A DNA stretch of 64,000 nucleotides, taken from contig NZ_JAERRK010000019.1 of assembly GCF_016741775.1 (NCBI RefSeq), positions 1 to 64,000 of the forward strand. Direction: 5' to 3'. The DNA comes from Streptomyces actinomycinicus (GTDB lineage Bacteria > Actinomycetota > Actinomycetes > Streptomycetales > Streptomycetaceae). The position numbers and the translations under genes were made by a program. Of the stretch, positions 5,481 to 50,186 are shown piece after piece (the stretch's first letter is position 1; every line of letters begins with the position of its first letter). The notes beneath the pieces were generated by a model. The model was not told the DNA's origin. It did not search any database and worked only from the letters and a program-made list of their open reading frames with translations.

Positions 5481-5557
<77 letters not shown>

Positions 5558-18744: not shown

Positions 18745-20058
18745 ATGCGCCTCTCCCCCTCAGGTCTCTCCGTCACGGGTCCCAGCCGTCGCGCCCTGCT
18801 GCGCGGAGCGGGCGGCGCCGCCCTGCTCACCGGAGCCGGCATACCCTTGCTGTCCGCGTGCGGAAGCAGCGGTTCCTCCTCCGACCCGAAGACCGTCACC
18901 CTGGGCTCCAACGCCTCCGACGCGGTGCCGAAGAAGGCCTTCGAAAGTGTCTACGCGGCCTTCAAGAAGCAGTCCGGCATCACCGTCGACGTGAACACGA
19001 AGGACCACAACACCTTCCAGGAACAGATCAACTCGTACCTGCAGGGCACTCCGGACGACGTGTTCAACTGGTTCGCCGGCTACCGCATGCAGTTCTTCGC
19101 CGCGAAGAAGCTGGCCACGCCGGTCGACGACGTCTGGGCGAAGATCGGGGACAACTTCCCCGAGGCGATGAAGAAGCTCAGCAAGGGCGAGGACGGCAAG
19201 TACTACTTCGTGCCGCTGACGACGTACCCCTGGGCCGTCTTCTACCGCAAGAGCGTCTTCCGGCAGCACGGGTACGAAGTCCCCGGCACCTGGGACGACT
19301 TCGTCGGCCTGCTGAAGCGGATGAAGAAGGACGGCCTGGTGCCGCTCGCGTTCGGCGACAAGGACGCCTGGCCCGCGATGGGCACCTTCGACCAGATCAA
19401 CTTCCGCCTCAACGGCTACGACTTCCACGTCGAGCTGATGGCGGGCAAGGCCTCCTGGACCGACGCCAAGGTGAAGGACGTCTTCGACCACTGGGCCGAG
19501 ATCCTCCCCTATCACCAGGACGGCTTCATGGGCCGCACCTGGCAGGACGCCGCACAGACGCTGGTGTCCAAGAAGGCGGGCATGTACCTCCTGGGCTCCT
19601 TCGTGGCCCAGCAGTTCACGGACAAGGCCGACCTGGACGACCTCGACTTCTTCCCCTTCCCGGAGATCAACCCCGCGTACGGCCAGGACACCGTGGAGGC
19701 GCCGACCGACGGCTTCATGGTCAGCAGGTCCCCGAAGAACCACGCCGGGGTCGTGAAGCTGCTGGAGTACCTCGGCGGCCCGGCCGCCGAGGGGCTGTAC
19801 CTCAAGACCGACCCGAGCGTGGTCGCCGCCTCGAGCAAGGCAGACACGTCCTCGTACTCGGCACTGCAGAAGAAGGCGTTCGAGATGATCGGTGGCGCCA
19901 AGAGCCTCACCCAGTTCATGGACCGTGACAGCCGCCCCGACTTCACCTCCACGGTGATGCAGCCCGGCCTGCAGAAGTTCCTCCAGAACCCCAAGGGCGT
20001 GGACGGCCTGCTGTCGTCCGTCGAACGCCAGAAGAAGACGATCTTCGCATCCTCGTGA
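18745..20058 (+). CDS. Extracellular sugar-binding lipoprotein (CUT1), Tat-type signal
   Basis: A 437-aa family-1 solute-binding protein. The signal carries a twin arginine (SRRALLRGAGG) and a lipobox LSAC, so it is probably a Tat-exported lipoprotein. The mature part has the type-2 binding fold, with aromatic residues (FNWFAGYRMQFF, TYPWAVFYRKS) of the kind that stack on sugars. It overlaps the first permease by four bases (GTGA). No ATPase gene is present; streptomycetes usually share MsiK among CUT1 systems. Confidence 0.85.
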   Translation: MRLSPSGLSVTGPSRRALLRGAGGAALLTGAGIPLLSACGSSGSSSDPKTVTLGSNASDAVPKKAFESVYAAFKKQSGITVDVNTKDHNTFQEQINSYLQGTPDDVFNWFAGYRMQFFAAKKLATPVDDVWAKIGDNFPEAMKKLSKGEDGKYYFVPLTTYPWAVFYRKSVFRQHGYEVPGTWDDFVGLLKRMKKDGLVPLAFGDKDAWPAMGTFDQINFRLNGYDFHVELMAGKASWTDAKVKDVFDHWAEILPYHQDGFMGRTWQDAAQTLVSKKAGMYLLGSFVAQQFTDKADLDDLDFFPFPEINPAYGQDTVEAPTDGFMVSRSPKNHAGVVKLLEYLGGPAAEGLYLKTDPSVVAASSKADTSSYSALQKKAFEMIGGAKSLTQFMDRDSRPDFTSTVMQPGLQKFLQNPKGVDGLLSSVERQKKTIFASS

Positions 20059-21047: not shown

Positions 21048-21931
21048 GCAGCACCGCCGTCCCGCTGAAGCGGCGCGCCCCGGTCCGCCCCGCCCGCGTC
21101 CTGCTGCACGTCTTCCTCGCGGGCACCGCCCTGGCCTGGCTGGCTCCCCTGCTGTGGGCCGTCTTCTCGGCCCTGCGCCCGTACAGCGAGACCAGTGCCA
21201 AGGGCTACGTCTCCTGGCCCGACAAGCTGAGCTTCGAGAACTTCACGAACGCCTTCCAGCAGTCGGACATGATGCACTACTTCGGCAACACGCTGATCAT
21301 CGCGGTCCCGGCCGTGCTGCTGACGCTCTTCCTGTCCTCCTGTGTGGCCTTCTACGTCAGCCGGTTCGACTTCCGCCTCAGCCTCGCCCTGCTGCTGGTG
21401 TTCACGGCCGGCAACCTGCTGCCGCAGCAGGTCATCATCACACCCCTGTACCGGCTGTACCTGCTCACGGACCTGCCGGGCATCACGGCGAGCGGCAAGC
21501 TGTACGACTCCGCGCTGGGCCTGGTCCTGATCCACGTGGCGTTCCAGTCGGGGTTCTGCGCGTTCGTGCTGAGCAACTACATGCGCTCGCTGCCCCAGGA
21601 GCTGACGGAGGCCGCCCTGGTCGACGGCGCCTCGGTGTGGCGGCTGTACTGGCAGATCACGCTGCCGCTGTGCAAGCCGGCGATGGCGGCCCTGGCGACC
21701 CTGCTGTCGATCTGGATCTACAACGACTTCTTCTGGGCGCTGGTACTGATCTCCACCGGCGAGAACATGCCGATCACCTCGGCCCTGAACAACCTCTCCG
21801 GCCAGTACTTCACCGACCCGAACCTGATCGCCGCCGGCGCCCTGCTGACCGCGATCCCGACCCTGATCGTGTACTTCGTGCTCCAGCGCCAGTTCGTCAG
21901 CGGCCTCACCCTGGGCTCCAACAAGGGCTGA
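21044..21931 (+). CDS. Sugar ABC permease, MalG/UgpE type
   Basis: A 295-aa membrane protein with six helices and an EAA motif (EAALVDGASVWRLYWQITLPL). The ATG overlaps the upstream stop (ATGA). It is the second half of the CUT1 channel. It is followed after 140 bases by the secreted GH5 gene on the same strand, suggesting that the importer takes up a product of that enzyme. Confidence 0.87.
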   Translation: MSSTAVPLKRRAPVRPARVLLHVFLAGTALAWLAPLLWAVFSALRPYSETSAKGYVSWPDKLSFENFTNAFQQSDMMHYFGNTLIIAVPAVLLTLFLSSCVAFYVSRFDFRLSLALLLVFTAGNLLPQQVIITPLYRLYLLTDLPGITASGKLYDSALGLVLIHVAFQSGFCAFVLSNYMRSLPQELTEAALVDGASVWRLYWQITLPLCKPAMAALATLLSIWIYNDFFWALVLISTGENMPITSALNNLSGQYFTDPNLIAAGALLTAIPTLIVYFVLQRQFVSGLTLGSNKG

Positions 21932-23564: not shown

Positions 23565-24692
23565 TCATGCGGTGGCGCCGGGCGCCAGAGCGCGGGCCTT
23601 GGCCGCCCACTCCCCCATGCACGTGATGGCCGAGGTCATCTGCTTCACGGCGGCGGAGATGTCCTGCACCGGCTTGCGGAGGTGCCGGCTCACGCGGACC
23701 ATGCCGCCCGCGGAGGTACCGAAGAAGCCGAGCTGTGCCAGGCTTTCGTGAGCGGACTCGTCCAAGGACACGAGCTGTTCCAGGAACTCCTCCGCTCCCT
23801 CGCCGCGCTCGCCGGGCGGAGTCACCTCGATCAGGCCCAGCGCCGCCCTCACCCCGCTGTCCAGTGTCACCATCCGTTCCGCGAAAGTCCCCGCGACGGC
23901 CTTCAGTTCGCCGGTCGGCACGCTGATCGACTGTGCGTACCGGGCCACCGAAGCGAGCCGTGCGCCGGCGGGCGCGTTCGCCTGGCCGAGGTCGAGCATC
24001 TCGGCACCGGCCTGTTCGGTCAGCGCTCCGATCGTCTCGATCGTCTTGCTGATCGCCTCCATGTCCGCGGTCATCGCGTCCAGCCCGTCCTCGATCGCCG
24101 CGAAGTCGTCGAGCAGACCGGGCGTGTCCTCGTCCTCCGCGTTCCCGCTCTCCGTGGCGGGGGACGGTCCGTCGCCGGGCTGGAGTCCGCGCAGCACCCG
24201 CGCCGGGGTGAGGGGTTCGAAACCGTCCCGGAGTCCGGCTTCCAGCGCGCCCTCGATCTCCCTGCGCGCGTCGGCGAGGTGGCTGCGCGTCCGTCGATAC
24301 CGGATCGTCCTGATCGACGCGATGTCGAAGGGCAGCTGCCCGGCCTCCCCGATGTGGATCGTCGGCCTGCCCGTGATGTGACGCAGTCCCAGCTCGTACA
24401 TCACGTTGGGGTTGCCGCCGCTGACGTCCGCGATGACCAGGTCCGACTCGATGACGTGGCGGCAGATCTGCTCGTTCATGTCACCGGCGTGCGCGATGCC
24501 GTCCGCGCGCACGGCGGTGATCCCGTACCTCTCGCAGGCGGGGGCGATCACCTGCTCGAAGATCCCGAGGTGATGCTCGTACGCCGCACGTTCGGGGCTG
24601 CCGTGCGCGGCGTACGAGTCGCCGATGGGGCCGATGACGAAACACTTGCGGGGCTGGTGCGGCTCCTGCCGGTGAGCCGGTGGCGTGATCAT
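23565..24692 (-). CDS. Effector-like protein: deoxyribosyltransferase/TIR-like domain plus helical tail
   Basis: A 375-aa protein. Residues about 15-140 form a Rossmann-like domain with CFVIGPIGD, a central SDLVIADVSGGNPNVMYELG stretch and RHITGRPTIHI. This is the signature of nucleoside-2-deoxyribosyltransferase/TIR-related domains that often act as NAD- or nucleotide-cleaving effectors; the Glu of YELG is the likely catalytic residue. After an acidic linker (about 200-215), residues 215-375 are long amphipathic helices resembling a sensor or coiled-coil scaffold. Its ATG overlaps the HTH gene (ATGA). It is the last gene of a five-gene operon. Activity is inferred. Confidence 0.72.
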   Translation of the reverse strand: MITPPAHRQEPHQPRKCFVIGPIGDSYAAHGSPERAAYEHHLGIFEQVIAPACERYGITAVRADGIAHAGDMNEQICRHVIESDLVIADVSGGNPNVMYELGLRHITGRPTIHIGEAGQLPFDIASIRTIRYRRTRSHLADARREIEGALEAGLRDGFEPLTPARVLRGLQPGDGPSPATESGNAEDEDTPGLLDDFAAIEDGLDAMTADMEAISKTIETIGALTEQAGAEMLDLGQANAPAGARLASVARYAQSISVPTGELKAVAGTFAERMVTLDSGVRAALGLIEVTPPGERGEGAEEFLEQLVSLDESAHESLAQLGFFGTSAGGMVRVSRHLRKPVQDISAAVKQMTSAITCMGEWAAKARALAPGATA

Positions 24693-24991
24693 GCGGGGTC
24701 CTCCGTTCCACGGGTGTCGTCGAGGCGGGCGGCGTTGGCGGCACCGGCTTCCAGGTCGACGGCGTACACCGGCCGCTCCTCGATGCCGAGGGCGCGCAAC
24801 AGGTACGCGGTCGGGATGCGGTAGCGCCGGCCGAGACGGAGCACCGGGCAGGGGAAGGCGCCGAGACGGATCAGCCTGTACGCCGTACCGGGGCAGACTC
24901 CGAAGGCGCGGGCAGCCGTCCGCAGGTCGACGCTCAAGGGCAGGTCGAAGGCCTCCGCGAAGCCGAGGGGCGGGCCGGACCGCGCGCTCAC
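24689..24991 (-). CDS. Small excisionase/MerR-like HTH protein
   Basis: A 100-aa protein with one helix-turn-helix (VDLRTAARAFGVCPGTAYRL) followed by a wing (RLGRRYRIPTAYLLRALGI) as in excisionase-type DNA-binding proteins. The short C-terminal part is acidic. I chose the GTG at 24991 because it overlaps the preceding stop (GTGA); the longer upstream frame is a shadow of the neighbouring gene. It may regulate the operon or dock its products on DNA. Confidence 0.68.
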   Translation of the reverse strand: MSARSGPPLGFAEAFDLPLSVDLRTAARAFGVCPGTAYRLIRLGAFPCPVLRLGRRYRIPTAYLLRALGIEERPVYAVDLEAGAANAARLDDTRGTEDPA

Positions 24992-25788
24992 CGCGGGGCT
25001 CCCGCGGGACGGAGAGCCAGCGTGCCGATGCGCACGGCCTCCTCGTGGCGCCGGGCCCGGAACACCAGCTCGGGCAGGCCCGCGCAGTGGGCGAGCGCTC
25101 CGAGGCGTTCCCCTTCCCGCCCGGTGCGCGACTCGGCGAAGCGAATCGTCGCGGACAGCCCGTCGTGCCGGGGCGGCGGCGTCAGGTGCAGTTCCCACCC
25201 GTCGGCCGGCCCTTCAAGCTCCTCCGGCGGGACGGGGGCGTTGCGGGCCGCGGCGAAGGCCGCGATGTCCACGACGGGGACCTCCCGTCCGACGCGGTCC
25301 GCGTGGGCCCACATCCGGTTCACCGCCTGCCTGATCAGGTGGCCGCCGGTGCCCGGGCTGTCCGGGTCGGCCGTGTCGAGGGCGGCGAGTACCGCGAGGA
25401 CGGCCTCCGCCTCGAGGTCGGCCCGCTCGACCCGCCGCCGGCGCAGGATCCGGTGCAGGTTCCGGTACGTCCCGGGCAGCGCCAGCCAGACGACGAGCAG
25501 CCGCCGGCTGCCGTCGCCGTGGACGGGCTCGCGCCGCGCCTCGGTGACCGCCTGACGCCACACCGCCGTCCGCAGCGCCTCGTCGCGTCGCGGCCCGTAC
25601 AGCGCCTGCCGTGCCGCCTGCGGTGACAGCTGGACCGAGCGGTCGCCGGCGCGCACGACGAGGTGCGACCGCACGTCGTCCTGTGGTGGCGCGAACCGTG
25701 GTGCCGCGAACCGTGGTGCCGCGAACCGTGGTGCCACGAAGTTCTCCTCGATCAGGGCGAAGACGCCCCGGGATTCAGTGGATGTCAT
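24988..25788 (-). CDS. Helical protein with sigma-region-2-like core
   Basis: A 266-aa protein of unknown function. The N-terminus carries a threefold APRFA repeat encoded by 15-bp DNA repeats. Residues about 85-165 (LLVVWLALPGTYRNLHRILR, then LEAEAVLAVLAAL and HLIRQAVNRMWAHADRV) look like the helices of sigma-70 region 2, but I see no region 4. The C-terminus is beta-rich. The ATG at 25788 lies inside the end of the 90-aa gene (14-base overlap); an upstream in-frame extension is arginine/proline-rich and not coding-like. Confidence 0.6.
   Translation of the reverse strand: MTSTESRGVFALIEENFVAPRFAAPRFAAPRFAPPQDDVRSHLVVRAGDRSVQLSPQAARQALYGPRRDEALRTAVWRQAVTEARREPVHGDGSRRLLVVWLALPGTYRNLHRILRRRRVERADLEAEAVLAVLAALDTADPDSPGTGGHLIRQAVNRMWAHADRVGREVPVVDIAAFAAARNAPVPPEELEGPADGWELHLTPPPRHDGLSATIRFAESRTGREGERLGALAHCAGLPELVFRARRHEEAVRIGTLALRPAGAPR
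25691..25735. repeat. Three 15-bp tandem repeats
   Basis: GCGAACCGTGGTGCC is repeated three times without change and encodes the APRFA repeats of the overlapping gene. The perfect identity suggests recent expansion. Confidence 0.9.
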
Positions 25789-26047
25789 CGCTGCTCCTGT
25801 CCTGCCCCGGCAGGCCGGCCGCCGCGAGCGCCGCCACCGCCCGTGCGCAGGCGCGTGCCAGGGCGGCCAGCGCGGCACGCGCGGCGGCGTGCCGCGTGGC
25901 CGAGAGCGGGCGCGTCCGTCCGTCCGGGAACCGGGCTGCCGCACCTGCCGGGGCCGCCGGGTAGATGTTGATGGTGCCGAGCACGTCGCCACCGACGTTC
26001 ACCCCGTAGTCCGCCCACTGGGTGCGGTCGGCGCCGAGGGCCGTCAC
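25775..26047 (-). CDS. 90-aa protein with N-terminal GVxVGGDVxG motif
   Basis: A small protein. Residues 11-31 contain GVNVGGDVLGTINIYPA, closely matching the C-terminal motif of the preceding cyclase-like protein (GVAVGGDVSGGITVGLPA): nine identities in fourteen positions. The rest (about 45-80) is an alanine/arginine-rich helix. GTG overlaps the upstream stop (GTGA). The paired short beta motif suggests homotypic assembly between the two products, as with bacterial amyloid signalling motifs; this is inference. Confidence 0.62.
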   Translation of the reverse strand: MTALGADRTQWADYGVNVGGDVLGTINIYPAAPAGAAARFPDGRTRPLSATRHAAARAALAALARACARAVAALAAAGLPGQDRSSDDIH

Positions 26048-26844
26048 CGGGCAGGGTCCGGGCCGGCCGGCGGAAGGTGCGCCGGAAGGCCGACCGTGAT
26101 TCCTCCGGAGACGTCACCGCCGACGGCGACGCCCCGGTGGACGTACTGGGAGAGGGCGGCGCCGGTCGCCCTGTCCGGGGTGGGTGGGTCCGGTGCCGGC
26201 CGCGGTCCGGCCGCCCCCTCCACCCACGGCCGCAGCTCCTGGGGCCCGTGGCCCGGCACACGGATCCAGCCGTAGCCGCCGAAGTCCTTCACCCGCACAT
26301 GGGCCCGGACGTACGGGGCCGGGTCGAGCCCGGGGTGCCCGAACCGTACGACGTCCTGGTACAGCCGGTCCGCCACGATGACGGCGAGGTCCGCCGAGGT
26401 GAGGGCGGCCAGTACGGATCTGAGCTGGGGGGCGTTCACCAGACGTGCCACGGCGACCGGCGTGGGTCCGGCGTGGCCGAGGGCGGCGTCCGCCACGACG
26501 CCTTTGTCGACGGCCAGCCGCAACCTGACGCGGGGGGCGGCCGGACGGGCGTTGAGGACGCGGAGCCGGGCCGCCAGATGGTGTACGAAGGGTCCCAGCA
26601 CCGTGGCCTCCGAGGTGGCCTCGGGGAGGACGGCGAACTCCTGGTCGCCCTGCGGCTGGCGGGTCCAGGCGGCGCGGTCCAGGCCGGTCAGCGACGCCGC
26701 CTCGTCCAGCAGCCGGACGAGATCGGACTGGACAGCCTTCTGGGTCCGGGTGTCGAGGCGGCTGTACTGCTCCACGTCCGCCGCCAGGCACAGCCGGCGG
26801 TGCGCGGAGACGTCCGAAGGCCAGGGGCAGGAGGGTTCGTTCAC
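26044..26844 (-). CDS. Degenerate class III nucleotidyl-cyclase-fold protein
   Basis: A 266-aa protein. The cyclase-like core shows both metal-site aspartates: one in LCLAADVEQYSRL (Asp23) and one in QPQGDQEFAVLPE (Asp67). The later PTPVAVARLVNA stretch keeps the arginine of the class III signature but lacks the transition-state asparagine, and the adenine-selecting lysine is a Gln, so cyclase activity is doubtful. After a proline-rich linker (about 210-230) comes a GVAVGGDVSG motif at 238-247. It is the first gene of the overlapping five-gene operon, 110 bases after a Crp-type gene. It may be a nucleotide-sensing switch. Confidence 0.68.
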   Translation of the reverse strand: MNEPSCPWPSDVSAHRRLCLAADVEQYSRLDTRTQKAVQSDLVRLLDEAASLTGLDRAAWTRQPQGDQEFAVLPEATSEATVLGPFVHHLAARLRVLNARPAAPRVRLRLAVDKGVVADAALGHAGPTPVAVARLVNAPQLRSVLAALTSADLAVIVADRLYQDVVRFGHPGLDPAPYVRAHVRVKDFGGYGWIRVPGHGPQELRPWVEGAAGPRPAPDPPTPDRATGAALSQYVHRGVAVGGDVSGGITVGLPAHLPPAGPDPAR

Positions 26845-26954: not shown

Positions 26955-27656
26955 CTAGCCGACCGGCACACTCAGCCGGGCTGCCTTCCGCAGTCGGGCC
27001 AGGTCCCGCACGTGCGTCTGCCGGATGCCGGTGGTGATGAGTCCGTCCTTGCGCAGCTGGGCGAGCGCCTTGTGCACGGTGTGGGTGGTGGAGCCGGTGA
27101 GGGCGGCGAACTCGGACTGGGACAGGTTCACGTCGATGCGCACCGTGTTCCGGTCCGGCCGCCCGTACGACACCGCCAGTTCCACGAGTACGCGGGCCAG
27201 CCGGACCGGGACCGGGTAGCCGCCGAACTCCAGACGCCACCGGTCGGAGCGGCGCAGACGACCGCAGAGCAGCCGGTTGAGCGCCAGGGACGTCTCGGGG
27301 TTGGCGAGGAGGAAGGGCACCAGTTCGTGCCCCGGGACGACGGTGGCGACCACGTCGCCGCAGGCGGTGACCGTGGCCGATCGCGGTCCGAGGTCCATCG
27401 CCGCCAACTCGCCCACGACGTCACCGGCGATCTTGATGTCCATGAGCGACTCCCGGTCACCGTCCAGTCGGGCGGTCACCTTCACCAGCCCTTCGTGGAG
27501 CACCACCAACTCCTGTGCGTGGTCTCCCTCGTTGATGAGTACGTCCCCCACGGCGTAGCGGCGCCGGACGCCGAGCAGGGTGAAGGCCGCGCGCGCCCCG
27601 TCGGGCAGCATGTCGAGAAACCGGGCGCGATCGTCAGGGTTCGAGCCGTGCGTCAT
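26955..27656 (-). CDS. Crp/Fnr-family transcriptional regulator
   Basis: A 233-aa regulator. Residues about 15-125 form a cyclic-nucleotide-binding beta roll (YAVGDVLINEGDHAQELVVLHEG, then IAGDVVGELAAMD). The C-terminal winged helix contains the HTH LSQSEFAALTGSTTHTVHKAL. The phosphate-binding cassette is partial (GELAAMDLGPRSATV keeps the Glu and an Arg). The ATG at 27656 is preferred; an upstream extension is non-coding-like. It lies directly before the cyclase-fold operon on the same strand, so it may sense a nucleotide linked to that system. Confidence 0.82.
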   Translation of the reverse strand: MTHGSNPDDRARFLDMLPDGARAAFTLLGVRRRYAVGDVLINEGDHAQELVVLHEGLVKVTARLDGDRESLMDIKIAGDVVGELAAMDLGPRSATVTACGDVVATVVPGHELVPFLLANPETSLALNRLLCGRLRRSDRWRLEFGGYPVPVRLARVLVELAVSYGRPDRNTVRIDVNLSQSEFAALTGSTTHTVHKALAQLRKDGLITTGIRQTHVRDLARLRKAARLSVPVG

Positions 27657-27808
27657 GTGCACAGCAGAGCACTTCCGCGACGCAGTGGTGCGTGTTTCCG
27701 CCCGGTCCGCCGGTGCGCCGAACGCACGCCGGGGCGCGCCACGGCGCACAGCCGGAGCACCCGTGGTTCCCCGGTGCAGACCGGCCCCGGGGTCCACGGC
27801 GGTGCTGG

Positions 27809-30800
27809 TCAGCCCCGCGCGCCCCGGTCGGCCTTGCCGACCGCCTCGGCCACGCCGTAGGAGCCCAGCAGGAGCAGCCGGTCCAAGAGGTCGAGGATCT
27901 CGGACCGGCGTGCGGCCGAGGGGGCCTGGGCGTGTGCGCGGACCAGCAGCTCACCGATGTGATGCGCGTCCGCCGCCGCACCGCTCGCCCGGTCGGCGGA
28001 GGCGGCGCCGAGCACGGTGAGGAATCGCCTCACACACGCCAGCACCAGCTCGTCCACCCGGTCCGGGGCATCCTCCAGCGTGATCAGCAACTGGGGCAGG
28101 GCGGGCACGAAGGCACCGGCGTCGATCAGCGCGGTGACCGTCCGGCGGAAGGGCGTCAGGCGCCGGCCCCTCAGCGCGACGGCTACCGCGGCAGCGGCTT
28201 CGCGTACGTCCTCCTCGGGGTCGTGGAAGAACCGGACGAGTGCGTGGTGGGCCAGGGCGGCGTCCCCGGTGTTCACCAGGCGCCGGGCGCAGACGTCCGC
28301 GGCCCCCTGCCGCTGTGCCCCGTCGTTCCCGGCGAGCACCTTCGCGAGGAGATCCGTCATCTCCCACTCCATCGCCGCGAGCGCGGCGACCTGTCCGCCG
28401 ACCCGGCGGACCGCCGGCACCGAGGAGCCCGACATGCGTTCCACGACCGGCCTGCCCGACACCGGGTCCCCGTGGCACAGGGCCACCACCAGGCGGGTCA
28501 CGTGCGGGGAGGCCAGAAGCTGATCGGGGGCCGCGGTGAGGACCGCGAAAGCGTCGGCCACGGCGAGGCGGTCGTGGCGCACCGCGGCGTGCAGCACATG
28601 CGCCACGCACGCCCGGACGGCCAGGGAAGGGTCGGCCGCCAGCCGGCCCAGGTGGGGGACGACCAGGGCGGCCCGAGACCCGTCCGTATCGTGCACGAGC
28701 AGGTCACCCAGGCATTCGGCCGCGCTGCCCCGTACGGTGTTGAGGCCCGCGGTGAGCAGGTCGCGCTCCACGTCTCCTGCGTCATCACCGGACCCGTCAC
28801 CGCCGTCGTCCGAGCCGAGGGCCCGGCTCAGCAGCGTCTCCACCAGGTCGAGGGGCGCACGGGTGAGGTGCCTGCGCAGCGCCCACCCGAGCCAGCGGTC
28901 GTGCTGCGGCCTCCCCTGGCCGGCGAAATGACGGACCGCGGCGAAAACGGCGTCCGGTACGTCCTGTGGCTCGGCGTCACCGAGGCCGAGGAGCAGCGAC
29001 GCTCCGTATGCCGGGTGCGTCCCTGCGTCCATCCGCAGGGCGAGCCGCGCGAAGCGGCCGGGGTCCGCCGCCGTCATGCTCCGCAGCACGTGGGACAGCT
29101 CCCGGGCCCCGCCGGTGAACGTCGCCCAGTCGGTACGGTCCCGGCTGTGCTTCCGCATGGCTCTCAGCCACTGGTCGTCGCTCATGTGCCGGGCCGCGTC
29201 CGCCGGGATGGGTGATCCGATGAACCCGGCCGACCTGCCCCGCGGTTCGTCCGGCTCCCGCAGGTCGGCGTGACGTCTGCGGAGTTCCCCGAGCCGACGC
29301 GCCGCCCGCTCCGTCAGACGCCCCTCGGGGAGCGCCGTCAGCAGGGTGAACTCGTGCCAGGGCGAGAACTCCTCGTCCGGGGGAAGGCGCAGGTGGAGGA
29401 GGGTGTTCTCCAGCCGCCCGAGGGTGTCGTCGGGCAGTGCGCCACCGACGGCGCGGAGGACCTCTCGTGCGCCCCACACGACGTTGGCCCCGTAGCCCGA
29501 CAACAGGCGGTGTCCGCCCTGCAGAAGGATCTCGGCGGCCCAGGGGGCGAGAGCCGGCCCCGCCCCGGCGAGCGCTTGGTAGAGCAGCCATTGCGCCGCC
29601 TCGTACGGCACGTCCACGAGCCCCTTCACGAGTGCGCGCACCCGAGCGGCGTCTCGGCCCGCCACGGTCCGCAGCGCCCCGGCCGCCCCCTGGAACAGGG
29701 CCTCGCCCAGGTCGCCGGGTTCGTCGTCGGGGTAGCGGAACGCGAAGTGCCGGTCGAAGACCAGCCGGGCCGCCCGCGGCGGGCAGGCGGTCGCGGCCAT
29801 GACGTCCAGCAGCACGGGGAGAAGCCGGGCACAGAACTCCTCGGGAGCGCCCAGGGCTGCGGCCGCCACCAGACGGAGTGCCCAGTGGTCCCGGGACAGC
29901 AGCACGGCGACCCTGCCCTGATCATCGAGTTGCAGGGCGTCCGGGCGTTCTGTCAGCAGCACACCGAGCAACTCGACCGCCCATGCGGGCTCCTGGGCCG
30001 CGAGGTCGCACGCCGACGTCCAGAGGTCGTGCTCGCGGCCGGTGAAGAGGCCGGAACGTACGCTGTCGAGCAGGAGATCGAAAAGCCGGCGGCTCCCTGC
30101 GAGGCGGGCGAAGCGAAGGATCCAGGCGAACCTGGAGCCGTGGCCGGGGTCCGAAGTGTGCGGTTCCAGGAGGCGGGCCAACCGGTCGGGGAAGGTGCCG
30201 GCGGCTGCGGCCATCATCCGTACCGCCCAGTCCCGTTCCCTGGCGTCGGGGCTGGTCAGCCAGTTCTCCAGCACCGCCTCGTCGTCGGCGCGACGGAACC
30301 ATGCCGCGGTGCTGACCGCGTTCACCAGCTGGTCCTGGAAGGCGGGGCGGGTGTCCAGCACCCGCACGACGGCATCCCACTCGGCCGCGGTGGGAGCTTC
30401 GAGGCCGCGCAGGACGGCCATGGTGACGTCCTTCAGGTGGTAGCGGATGCCGGGGCTGGTCAGCAGCGCCTCGACCTCGGCGGTGAACCGCTGCGGGTCC
30501 AGGTCCCGCAAGTGGTCGAGGACCTGGCGCACCTGACCGCGGCGGAAGAGTTCCTGTTCCCCGCCGGTGAGGAACGCGACCAGGCTCTCGTCGCGCCGGA
30601 GCCAGTCCCGCGCGAAGGCGTAGTCGAAGAAGCTCTCGTGGAAGAAGGCCAGTTGCCGGCCGTCGAGCACGCAGACGTGTTCCGAGACCAGCACGTCTCC
30701 GGTCGCGGCGAGGTCGTCCGTGTCGAGCAGGCTGTGCGGTACGAACAGCTGCTGCCGGGCGCTCATGGCCGCCACGACGGCCGACACCGCCTCGTGGAAG

Positions 30801-32260
30801 CGCGCGGCGGGCTGGCGACGCACGCACTCCTTCCGCTTGGTGTCCCAGAAGGCGTCGAAGAGCTGTCGGGTGGTGCGGAAGGAGAGGGCTGACTCCTGAC
30901 CGGCGACCTGTGCCAGGAGGACCAGGTGCAGCGGTGACCGCAGCAGTGCCCGCTGTGGTGGGGCCACTCGGGAGGGGTCCAGGCCCATGTCCGTGACCGC
31001 GGTGTCGACGCAGGCGTCGGAGAGTGACCCGACCGTCATGCGGGCACAGCGGTCGGATGCGGTGAGCTGGCGGATGCGGGGATCGGCCTGGGCGTCGAAC
31101 GCACGGCACACCAGCACGACGCGCAGGGCAGGGTGTGTCACCGCCTCGGTCACGAGGTCGGCCACCACGTCGAAGGTGTCCGGGATGCGTCCCGACGCGA
31201 GGCTCACCGCGTCGAGCTGGTCGATGATCAGTACGGCGGGCCGTCCGTCGGCGACGGCTCCGAGGGCGCTGACCGGGGACATGGCCAGACCGATGCGCCG
31301 GCCCAGTTCGTGGGTCGAGGTGAAGGGGTCCAACCGGTCGAGACGGAAGGCGAGCACCGGTACGGCTCGCTCGACGAGCGCGTGCAGGGCCTGATGCAGC
31401 ACGGCGGTCTTCCCGCCACCCGCGGCACCCGTCAGCAGGACGAGCTGCTCGGTTCCCGTCGTGACCTGCTCCACCAGGCGGTCGGCTTCGTCCCGGGGGA
31501 TCGTGGGCCGCAGGAGAGCACGTTCGACGCTCGCCGCCCACTGACGCGTGGCCCTGGCCACCGCGTCGGTCACCGCGTCACCGTCCACCCTGCTGACCCG
31601 CCGCAGTCCGTACGGGGCCAGCCGGGCGATGATGCCCGATGCGTCGAGAGTGGTGCCCAGGCTGTTCAGCAGGAGGTCGCCGAGTCCGGCCGCCGCGAGC
31701 CGGCCCGCCGCCCCCGCGAGGGCCTGTTCGGCCAGGACCGCGTTGGTGCTCATGACGTCCCGTTCGTCGTGCCACTCCACCCAGAGCCCTCTCAGCATGC
31801 GCCAGGCGGTCGCGGCCGAACCGTAGATGCCGGCCGCGGCGAGGGCGGCGAAGGGGCCTCGGAGTTCATCGGTCAGCCACTCGGCTTCGAACGAGGCACA
31901 GTCGTCGGAGCGACGGGCCCGGTCGGCGAGTTCGTCGAGGGAACGGGCGGGGACCAGGGAGACGAAGTGGAACGCGCGGCCCGCCTCGACGTGGGAACGC
32001 AGGTTCCTCCACACGTCCTTGTCGCGGAGGGAGGCCACGTTCCAGCTGTTCGCGTTCCGGTTCTGCCGCTTGACCTGGTGCACCTCCGTTCCGCCGTGGT
32101 GGCGGTAGACGAACTCGACACCGTCACCGGAGGCGGGGCCCGGCTCCAGGGTGATCGACGTCCCCATGCCCAGGAGCACGTACAGGGCGTGCCTGACCGT
32201 CCAGGCTCCTTCGTAGCGGTTGCCGAACTTGTCCGCCTCGCCTCCGGGCCGTGGTACCAC
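27809..32260 (-). CDS. Large STAND-type NTPase with N-terminal QxK nuclease-like domain
   Basis: About 1,483 residues. The N-terminal 120 residues look like a Cap4/Mrr-type PD-(D/E)xK nuclease: a helix (RYEGAWTVRHALYVLLG), then GDGVEFVYRH with Asp46, then EVHQVKRQ with Q62xK64. An NTPase follows: Walker A GAAGGGKT (278-285), Walker B VLIIDQLD (343-350) and a sensor-like VVLVCRAFDA. The remaining thousand residues are alpha-helical HEAT/TPR-like repeats. This is the layout of Avs-type antiphage sensors. The start is uncertain: GTG at 32260 is taken, and GTG at 32272 or the ATG at 32431 are possible. Confidence 0.75.
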   Translation of the reverse strand: MVPRPGGEADKFGNRYEGAWTVRHALYVLLGMGTSITLEPGPASGDGVEFVYRHHGGTEVHQVKRQNRNANSWNVASLRDKDVWRNLRSHVEAGRAFHFVSLVPARSLDELADRARRSDDCASFEAEWLTDELRGPFAALAAAGIYGSAATAWRMLRGLWVEWHDERDVMSTNAVLAEQALAGAAGRLAAAGLGDLLLNSLGTTLDASGIIARLAPYGLRRVSRVDGDAVTDAVARATRQWAASVERALLRPTIPRDEADRLVEQVTTGTEQLVLLTGAAGGGKTAVLHQALHALVERAVPVLAFRLDRLDPFTSTHELGRRIGLAMSPVSALGAVADGRPAVLIIDQLDAVSLASGRIPDTFDVVADLVTEAVTHPALRVVLVCRAFDAQADPRIRQLTASDRCARMTVGSLSDACVDTAVTDMGLDPSRVAPPQRALLRSPLHLVLLAQVAGQESALSFRTTRQLFDAFWDTKRKECVRRQPAARFHEAVSAVVAAMSARQQLFVPHSLLDTDDLAATGDVLVSEHVCVLDGRQLAFFHESFFDYAFARDWLRRDESLVAFLTGGEQELFRRGQVRQVLDHLRDLDPQRFTAEVEALLTSPGIRYHLKDVTMAVLRGLEAPTAAEWDAVVRVLDTRPAFQDQLVNAVSTAAWFRRADDEAVLENWLTSPDARERDWAVRMMAAAAGTFPDRLARLLEPHTSDPGHGSRFAWILRFARLAGSRRLFDLLLDSVRSGLFTGREHDLWTSACDLAAQEPAWAVELLGVLLTERPDALQLDDQGRVAVLLSRDHWALRLVAAAALGAPEEFCARLLPVLLDVMAATACPPRAARLVFDRHFAFRYPDDEPGDLGEALFQGAAGALRTVAGRDAARVRALVKGLVDVPYEAAQWLLYQALAGAGPALAPWAAEILLQGGHRLLSGYGANVVWGAREVLRAVGGALPDDTLGRLENTLLHLRLPPDEEFSPWHEFTLLTALPEGRLTERAARRLGELRRRHADLREPDEPRGRSAGFIGSPIPADAARHMSDDQWLRAMRKHSRDRTDWATFTGGARELSHVLRSMTAADPGRFARLALRMDAGTHPAYGASLLLGLGDAEPQDVPDAVFAAVRHFAGQGRPQHDRWLGWALRRHLTRAPLDLVETLLSRALGSDDGGDGSGDDAGDVERDLLTAGLNTVRGSAAECLGDLLVHDTDGSRAALVVPHLGRLAADPSLAVRACVAHVLHAAVRHDRLAVADAFAVLTAAPDQLLASPHVTRLVVALCHGDPVSGRPVVERMSGSSVPAVRRVGGQVAALAAMEWEMTDLLAKVLAGNDGAQRQGAADVCARRLVNTGDAALAHHALVRFFHDPEEDVREAAAAVAVALRGRRLTPFRRTVTALIDAGAFVPALPQLLITLEDAPDRVDELVLACVRRFLTVLGAASADRASGAAADAHHIGELLVRAHAQAPSAARRSEILDLLDRLLLLGSYGVAEAVGKADRGARG

Positions 32261-32382
32261 CGTCCCCCTCACCCTCCCCCGGGGCGGCCTCGTCCGTCCG
32301 CCCACGAGCGCGGACGCTACCGCACGGTCCGGGGTACCGGGCGCGGTCAACGAGGCTTCACGTAGCCGGCCGCCCCCCGGCG

Positions 32383-32997
32383 CTATGTGTTGCAACTGGT
32401 GACGCCCAGGGCCACCAGGCCCTCTTGCCACTGCGAGAGCAGGGGGTCCACTTTCTTGATTTCGCTGTCGGCGGCGTTGAGAACCCGTAGTGACTGAGTA
32501 GGGTTCGCCAAGCTGACCTGACTCAGATCTCCCGCGACTCGCGACATCGCATTACTCGCGCCCACCCCGCCGTCCACCACCTTGTCCACATCCCCCTTGA
32601 TGCTTTCCGGACGCTCGATGCTCCTGATCTCCCCGTTGATGCTGCGCAGCGCTCCGGCCGCTGCGTCGAAATACCACGCGGCGTTTTTGATCTGCTGATC
32701 GGTCAGAGTGCCGGCCCGCAGGCTCGTCTGCATGGCACTGAGCGAAGAACGCGAGTTGAGAGTCGCACTGCTCAGTGTGCCGATCTCGCGCTCACAGACC
32801 GCGTTTGCCTCAGACACCCAGTCTGCTTTCGTCCAGGGTTCAGGACGGTCCACAAGCGTGACAACCAGGCCGATGATCCCCGCGATTCCCGCAAGCGCCG
32901 CAATGAGGCCGCCGATCCGCTTGGCAAGTCCGTGTCGGGGGCCTTCGGATTGTCCATTACCGCCTGCAGGGTTCTGCCCTCGATCGCCATCTGGCAT
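32383..32997 (-). CDS. Single-pass membrane protein with extracellular helical domain
   Basis: A 204-aa protein. The first 26 residues are hydrophilic, a membrane helix spans about 27-50 (IGGLIAALAGIAGIIGLVVTLV), and the outer part is helical with conserved-looking WVSEANAVCE. Two cysteines (in AVCERE and VTSCNT near the C-terminus) could pair. Codon use is less GC-rich than its neighbours, suggesting transfer or low expression. Family unknown. The ATG at 32997 has no strong ribosome site; function cannot be assigned. Its 3' end lies upstream of the large NTPase start on the same strand. Confidence 0.65.
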   Translation of the reverse strand: MPDGDRGQNPAGGNGQSEGPRHGLAKRIGGLIAALAGIAGIIGLVVTLVDRPEPWTKADWVSEANAVCEREIGTLSSATLNSRSSLSAMQTSLRAGTLTDQQIKNAAWYFDAAAGALRSINGEIRSIERPESIKGDVDKVVDGGVGASNAMSRVAGDLSQVSLANPTQSLRVLNAADSEIKKVDPLLSQWQEGLVALGVTSCNT

Positions 32998-33315: not shown

Positions 33316-33342
33316 GACCTGCGACTACGGAGCGAACTCCAG

Positions 33343-33416
<74 letters not shown>

Positions 33417-50109: not shown

Positions 50110-50186
<77 letters not shown>

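Follow-up and report, generated by a model that had tools for sequence, protein, structure and literature searches.

A large reading frame in a contig of Streptomyces actinomycinicus raises two questions: whether its product is an immune receptor of the STAND class, and whether the genes beside it belong to the same system. The frame lies in a stretch of DNA of 64,000 nucleotides, which is referred to here as the window. A sequence-only reading of this DNA had proposed an Avs-like STAND NTPase with an N-terminal nuclease domain, lying next to an operon and its regulator.

The receptor gene and its relatives

The gene encoding the STAND/NACHT receptor with its N-terminal Cap4-like nuclease (minus strand, 27809-32260; 1,483 amino acids, GTG start at 32260) is held in a minus-strand open frame at 27809-32431, and the plus-strand reading of the receptor stretch is interrupted by four stops. 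The G+C content of the frame, 0.88 at codon position 3 and 0.52 at position 2, is gene-like, and an uninterrupted, nearly full-length frame is present in 65 of the 76 loci fetched. Conservation in the alignment of the receptors starts at residues 3-7, which together with the intact relatives supports both the gene and its start. The sequence-only reading, which gave no strand, had taken 27809-32260 to be a real gene; the GTG at 32260 fits, and the reality and extent of the gene are confirmed. A search of its own 8.79 Mb genome, on contig 18 of which the window lies, gives a single match for the receptor within E 0.001.

The 76 loci with relatives come from a scan of one genome per species with short peptide patterns, by which relatives are missed. 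The alignment comprises 66 sequences, namely the window protein and those from 65 loci with one uninterrupted frame spanning the query from residue 8 or less to residue 1340 or more. The 11 loci left out, in which the gene is broken, split or incomplete over the stretch covered, are L024, L029, L031, L032, L034, L043, L048, L070, L072, L075 and L076. Two of them, from Rubrobacteraceae bins (L031, 9196-13735 and L034, 3158-8018), share a break near residue 1045, where the receptor divides into two frames that overlap, which resembles the NTPase part and the sensor end as separate genes.

Streptomyces proteins share 71-81% identity with the receptor and those of other actinobacteria and streptomycetes 35-60%, while relatives at 25-34% are encoded in Cyanobacteria, Chloroflexi, Planctomycetes, Proteobacteria and others, most of the matches being whole-length. 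Within the genus, 7 of 150 genomes match at E 1e-100 or better. They are the own genome, two at 75-81%, one at 53% and three at 30-32%, one of these last without the nuclease part in the match. Among 61 relatives searched at E 1e-20 three match, the own included, one of them over residues 316-506 only. A tree of the 66 sequences was obtained by a quick method with SH-aLRT support, many rows failing the composition test; by record titles it covers eight phyla, and in it the Actinomycetota are found together, as are the Cyanobacteriota, most Pseudomonadota and most Chloroflexota. The window protein and eight Streptomyces rows form a fully supported clade, hereafter the close clade. Seven partial matches to the receptor are on plasmids. 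A relative on a conjugative plasmid of Sinorhizobium numidicum (L101, 6857-14716) adjoins an integrase and a multiubiquitin-ThiF-DUF6527 operon. No phage record matches at E 1e-5, so that no counter-defence or prophage clue is available for the receptor.

The distribution of the receptor is thus patchy, which bears on whether its nuclease might cut the DNA of its own cell for a purpose other than defence against phages, such as programmed death in development or the control of plasmids or gene transfer. Crp-family regulators, one of which is encoded beside the receptor, are common in Streptomyces development. The STAND protein MalT acts in the control of transcription, as stated in PMC10427625, and gene transfer agents are reported in PMC13236601 to be under the control of an NLR-like system. 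Presence in so few genomes of the genus yet in eight phyla is unusual for a developmental gene, and we consider such a purpose unlikely.

N-terminal nuclease domain

Residues 1-120 (31901-32260, minus strand) are predicted to form the core of a PD-(D/E)xK nuclease, as suggested by a model of residues 1-235 that was built with the 66-sequence alignment (mean pLDDT 90.3) and by its Foldseek and VIA-align matches. The model consists of a helix (15-29), three strands (35-38, 50-54 and 57-64), helices (75-92), a further strand (96-101) and a helix (106-117), which is the order of the PD-(D/E)xK nucleases and supports this fold. Foldseek lists 15 PDB rows with an E-value of at most 0.001, and each is a chain of Avs3, Hachiman, LmuA or Cap4; Avs3 (8dgc, E 3.7e-6) comes first, followed by chains of the other three. 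VIA-align superposes the model on chain A of Hachiman 8zue, presumably HamA (Z 13.6, 4.8 A, 202 residues), Cap4 7yib (Z 13.2, 3.8 A, 215 residues), Avs3 8dgc (Z 13.1, 3.9 A, 204 residues) and HerA-DUF4297 9c1m (Z 12.8, 3.5 A, 173 residues), against a Z of 5.5-8 for unrelated or more general nucleases. A Cap4-type PD-(D/E)xK fold is therefore found on the predicted model. The sequence-only reading was to be given up if the N-terminal residues did not adopt a PD-(D/E)xK fold; that fold is not refuted, because the model is a confident Cap4/Avs3-like one. The domain is accordingly predicted to be a nuclease of the Cap4/Avs3 type.

The Q62-V-K64 motif (32069-32077, minus strand) that had been read from the sequence is present, with the lysine in 66 of 66 aligned sequences and the first position occupied by Gln in 51 and Ser in 15. 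The catalytic acid proposed with it, Asp46, does not hold up, being kept in just 12 of the 66. The conserved acids are Glu39 (32144-32146, minus strand; 65 of 66) and Glu49 (32114-32116, minus strand; Glu in 62 and Asp in 4), and Trp73 is invariant in all 66. Glu39 stands directly past strand 35-38, Glu49 directly ahead of strand 50-54 and Lys64 within strand 57-64, so that the acids and the (Q)xK motif sit in the strands expected of a nuclease of the Cap4/DUF4297 type. From this conservation Glu39, Glu49 and Lys64 are the likely catalytic residues, in place of Asp46. With an E-value limit of 1, the Pfam family Cap4_nuclease (PF14130) matches 18 of the 66 N-terminal domains, the best of them at 2.1e-8; the window protein is not among the 18.

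The substitution of Gln62 by Ser in 15 sequences might be taken to indicate a catalytically dead Cap4-like fold that serves in oligomerisation and leaves the killing to another protein, for example the TIR-like neighbour described below. The invariance of Lys64 and the near invariance of Glu39 and Glu49 (or Asp) argue against this, and we hold it to be highly improbable.

NTPase, winged-helix domain and solenoid

The Walker A and B motifs of the sequence-only reading are borne out by the alignment: GAAGGGKT at residues 278-285 (31406-31429, minus strand) and the Walker B region PAVLIIDQLDAV at residues 341-352 (31205-31240, minus strand), with the core LIIDQLD that includes D347 and D350. A stretch FFHESFFDY at residues 539-547 (30620-30646, minus strand), which we take to be the winged-helix histidine motif of NACHT proteins, has its first eight residues (539-546) invariant in the 66 sequences, as are Gly281, Gly283, Lys284, Gln348, Asp350 and Arg386. 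The region from residue 241 to about 680 (30221-31540, minus strand) is assigned to nucleotide-binding, helical and winged-helix domains of NACHT-like kind from the model and its fold matches, the NACHT domains of NLRP9, NLRC4 and NLRP3 being matched over residues of about 240-650.

A model of residues 240-1439, outside which residues 1440-1483 lie, has a mean pLDDT of 90.4 and a pTM of 0.66. In VIA-align its first match is NLRP9 (Z 19.8, 4.3 A, 377 residues), with NLRC4 (Z 18.8, 390 residues aligned) and NLRP3 (Z 18.7) close behind and NOD2, NLRP1, plant NRC1, Avs4, Apaf-1 and AVAST5 in lower rows; model residues 441-776 (680-1015 of the protein) are barely covered by these alignments. The first Foldseek rows for the same model are Avs4 (E 2.9e-12), at a TM-score of just 0.38 over the long model. 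No Pfam nSTAND or NACHT model passes its cut-off for the window protein, nSTAND_NTPase5 reaching 25 bits against a curated cut-off of 34. A P-loop, a Walker B motif and a winged-helix domain of NACHT type are recognised from the fold match together with the motifs, and they support a NACHT-type STAND NTPase as the predicted centre of the receptor.

The remainder of the protein, from about residue 681 to 1483 (27812-30220, minus strand), is predicted to be a helical solenoid and is presumed to be the sensor. The tail of helical repeats proposed earlier is present in the model, mostly as helix, at a length of about 800 residues instead of about 1,000. Its end matches HEAT proteins such as PP2A-A in VIA-align, a kind of match often given by long helical repeats, and profile matches to the designed HEAT-like alphaRep proteins (best 3.5e-8) also point to HEAT. 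A helical solenoid, HEAT-like where tested, is thus supported by the model. When the close clade is set aside, the remaining 57 sequences are better conserved in the nuclease core, the NTPase and the winged helix than in the solenoid, as expected for a receptor with a more variable sensor. The most conserved block of the solenoid, residues 1001-1100, is intermediate.

Relation to known immune receptors

The models and the fold searches agree with a plan of N-terminal effector, central STAND NTPase and C-terminal helical sensor. To this extent the description as Avs-like stands. With E-values of up to 1 allowed, the window protein is matched by none of the PADLOC models for Avs1-5, which makes it Avs-like but outside Avs1-5 as PADLOC defines them. 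The comparison with Avs and Cap4 profiles that had been suggested gives nothing for the window protein; relatives match an Avs2 model in 11 of 31 cases and Cap4 in the 18 mentioned above. The 31 family members were scanned with PADLOC at E up to 0.1, where the best Avs2 match has an E-value of 4.2e-8 and 22 members match the defence candidate PDC-M54A. The latter matches the window protein at E 1.1e-14 over residues 268-563, that is 319 of the 1,657 model positions and the NTPase part alone, not its full length. Single-sequence PDB searches with the receptor yielded chance matches or nothing, so that profiles are needed, and a search of NCBIfam gave no useful match.

In the family profile search one solved chain stands far above all others. 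It is the 1,523-residue 'AAA family ATPase' of PDB entries 9n00, 9n01 and 9yix, which is matched over the nuclease (E 4.6e-8) and, in two stretches (E 1.1e-58), over the NTPase and residues of about 890-1347 of the solenoid, the conserved block 1001-1100 included. The chain has a Q-x-K at the place matching that of the receptor, and pieces of it match the PADLOC LmuA and PDC-M54A models, but it is too distant for a single-sequence match with the window protein. These profile matches imply that the architecture of the receptor is already represented in the PDB. No paper was found under the codes 9N00, 9N01 and 9YIX; 9n00 is absent among the best 50 Foldseek rows of either model, which is uninformative on its fold. 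Cyanobacterial plasmids (AP018182.1, NZ_CP063786.1 and others) also encode an NTPase of the 9n00 type, there within proteins whose annotation reads caspase family or pentapeptide-repeat, which suggests swapping of effectors.

Avs3 (8dgc) and Avs4 (8dgf) have in common with the receptor the order of nuclease, STAND NTPase and helical sensor. Avs3 has a nuclease fold like that of the receptor in a longer chain of 2,028 residues. For residues 240-1439 Foldseek ranks Avs4 first, although the family profile matches the Avs4 sequence with an E-value of just 0.061. The animal NLRs NLRP9, NLRC4 and NLRP3 resemble the receptor in their NACHT, helical and winged-helix domains (Z of about 19). They carry a death-fold effector and leucine-rich repeats, whereas the receptor has a nuclease and HEAT-like helices. 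As reported in PMC12931631, the nucleases of Avs1-4 cut phage and host DNA once they sense the terminase, the portal or some other protein of the phage; the same domain plan is described in PMC10286901. A literature search found no experiment with a member of the present family. The receptor probably represents a branch, as yet without a name, of immune receptors whose general kind is known.

A five-gene unit in one clade

Four genes follow the receptor gene on the same strand, in the order Crp regulator, cyclase-like protein, unassigned protein and TIR-like protein, the frames of the unit being separated by about 50-300 bp. The regulator (26955-27797, minus strand; possible start at the ATG at 27656) is of the Crp/Fnr type with cNMP_binding and HTH_Crp_2 domains. 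The cyclase-like protein (26044-26844, minus strand) resembles class III nucleotide cyclases by eye. It retains two Asp residues, in the contexts AADVEQYS and QGD, an Arg and a Lys, and apparently lacks the Asn that usually precedes the Arg of class III. Neither a meaningful Pfam match nor, with E-values of up to 1 allowed, a PDB match backs its putative identity as a cyclase, and judged from its residues it may be inactive. The third protein (24988-25992, minus strand), to which no function is assigned, is conserved from about residue 60 in its alignment, from which the rows L009 and L078 are excluded. A 15-base tandem repeat at 25683-25740 lies inside the variable start of its gene. The TIR-like protein (23565-24692, minus strand) matches a PADLOC TIR effector over residues 34-147 (E 1.6e-11) and retains GNPNVMYELGLRH in 10 of 10 aligned proteins, its PDB search giving two chance matches only.

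All eight loci of the close clade with enough flank (the window, L002, L003, L004, L006, L007, L008 and L009) have the complete unit, while L005 ends too early and the broken copy L024 has the first two neighbours before its contig end. None of the other window genes is shared around these units except through weak matches, of which L007 has one and L008 two, at 26-38% identity. No such cassette was found in the flanks examined, some of them short, of the sister locus L017 (60%) or of more distant loci. In a comparison of neighbouring ORFs of at least 80 amino acids within 7 kb of 65 loci, as far as the flanks reached, no family recurred at more than 3 of the 57 loci that do not belong to the close clade. 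A general partner gene is therefore not found, which counts also against a dead N-terminal domain that relies on another protein for killing. The cassette occurs without the receptor in L078 and L079, two of the five genomes of the genus with a TIR-like gene at 60% identity or more, and the Crp-cyclase pair occurs alone in L080. In the sequence-only reading the receptor gene had an operon of five genes, with the regulator of that operon, as its neighbour. The Crp regulator and the three genes downstream are conserved with the receptor, and the 'five genes' of that reading remain unmatched.

These observations are relevant to the possibility of a unit working in two tiers, where the cyclase-like protein would make a nucleotide signal, the Crp protein would read it and induce the five genes more strongly, and a second, NAD-degrading effector would be provided by the TIR-like protein, the STAND nuclease being one arm. 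The constant order and strand of the five genes in a fully supported branch, among other window genes that are hardly shared, speaks for such an arrangement, as conserved co-travel argues for a role of the neighbours in the function of the receptor. The four-gene part without a STAND gene and the flanks of other relatives without the cassette speak against it, since each half found alone argues that neither needs the other. The poor support for the cyclase and its missing Asn detract further, and given the gaps between the frames the genes may or may not be co-transcribed. We regard the two-tier scheme as possible, at the level of a tentative proposal. The simplest reading is that receptor and cassette are two modules joined once and kept together. 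Beyond this it is conceivable, if rather doubtful, that the receptor and the cyclic-nucleotide/TIR cassette, each viable alone, form a composite unit that was joined in one Streptomyces clade and moves as a set of five, and that a nucleotide signal acts by way of the Crp regulator to arm the receptor. Cyclases of cyclic nucleotides, TIR domains and Crp-like regulators are described in other conflict systems of multicellular bacteria in the sections of PMC7159879 consulted, and a receptor with Crp, cyclase-like and TIR-like neighbours is not found in those sections.

Genomic site

In the close relative G003 (L096) the genes to the left (ABC genes and PBP) and to the right (DUF309, methylase and CbiJ) are encoded in the same order at 63-89% identity, and all five genes of the unit are lacking. 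The interval between PBP and DUF309 is 3.3 kb there against 15.2 kb in the window. Part of the difference comes from an adjacent sugar transporter that aligns in remnants only, which implies more than one event at the site. The gene of the window's sugar-binding protein (18745-20058) borders the five-gene unit. A gene with 79% identity to it (L011, 23538-24416) lies about 9 kb from another family member.

A tRNA-Pro(GGG) gene (33342-33416, minus strand) is situated to the right of the receptor gene at a distance of about 1.1 kb. The interval holds an ORF of 204 amino acids (32383-32997, minus strand) that is not conserved, and a tRNA-Pro(GGG) is present by DUF309 at the matching place in L096, L095 and L097. 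The window has three identical genes of this tRNA in 45 kb (5481-5557, 33342-33416 and 50110-50186). The receptor-less cassette of L078 also adjoins a tRNA-Pro(GGG), the other flank of which corresponds to that of the third copy of the window, near 50.1 kb; the cassette is thus seen near different copies in the two genomes. A tRNA border is not a general rule, as the examined stretches of L004, L006, L007, L008 and L009 have no tRNA, and among the loci checked the window and L078 are the only ones near tRNA-Pro. A tRNA-Pro(CGG) called by ARAGORN at 21900 looks spurious from its sequence. Among the 20 repeat families listed of 22, none consists of direct repeats that might serve the unit as attachment sites. 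The 'small defence island' suggested previously is better described as one five-gene unit whose order is kept in differing genomic surroundings.

Proposed mechanism

We consider it probable, by analogy, that the receptor is a phage-triggered, NTP-switched and oligomeric NLR-like nuclease that causes abortive infection. In the resting state the solenoid and the winged-helix domain would keep the NTPase closed and nucleotide-bound. Binding of a phage protein made during infection by the solenoid would lead the NTPase to exchange its nucleotide and the receptor to oligomerise, which would gather the N-terminal Cap4-like domains. These would cut DNA by means of Glu39, Glu49 and Lys64 and halt the multiplication of the phage, probably through killing or arrest of the cell. 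The predicted three-part architecture, the conserved residues, the family with its patchy spread and the five-gene unit in differing surroundings form the basis of this proposal; from Avs1-4 and the NLR proteins we infer that the receptor would sense a ligand, oligomerise, cleave DNA and abort the infection. The Sinorhizobium plasmid relative beside its integrase and multiubiquitin-ThiF-DUF6527 operon counts for an immune reading. The plasmid relatives of Rhizobium phaseoli and Isosphaeraceae, whose neighbours are not recognisable defence genes, count against it.

Significance

Defence in Streptomyces has been little tested in comparison with that of E. coli. The alignment and the tree outline an unnamed family of nuclease-NACHT receptors in eight bacterial phyla and, within it, a clade where the receptor is always found with the Crp/cyclase-like/TIR-like cassette at loci with enough flank. 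The conserved set of neighbours in this clade is unusual. Natural loci with and without each half exist for comparison, and this clade makes it possible to test whether nucleotide signals arm the NLR-like receptors of bacteria.
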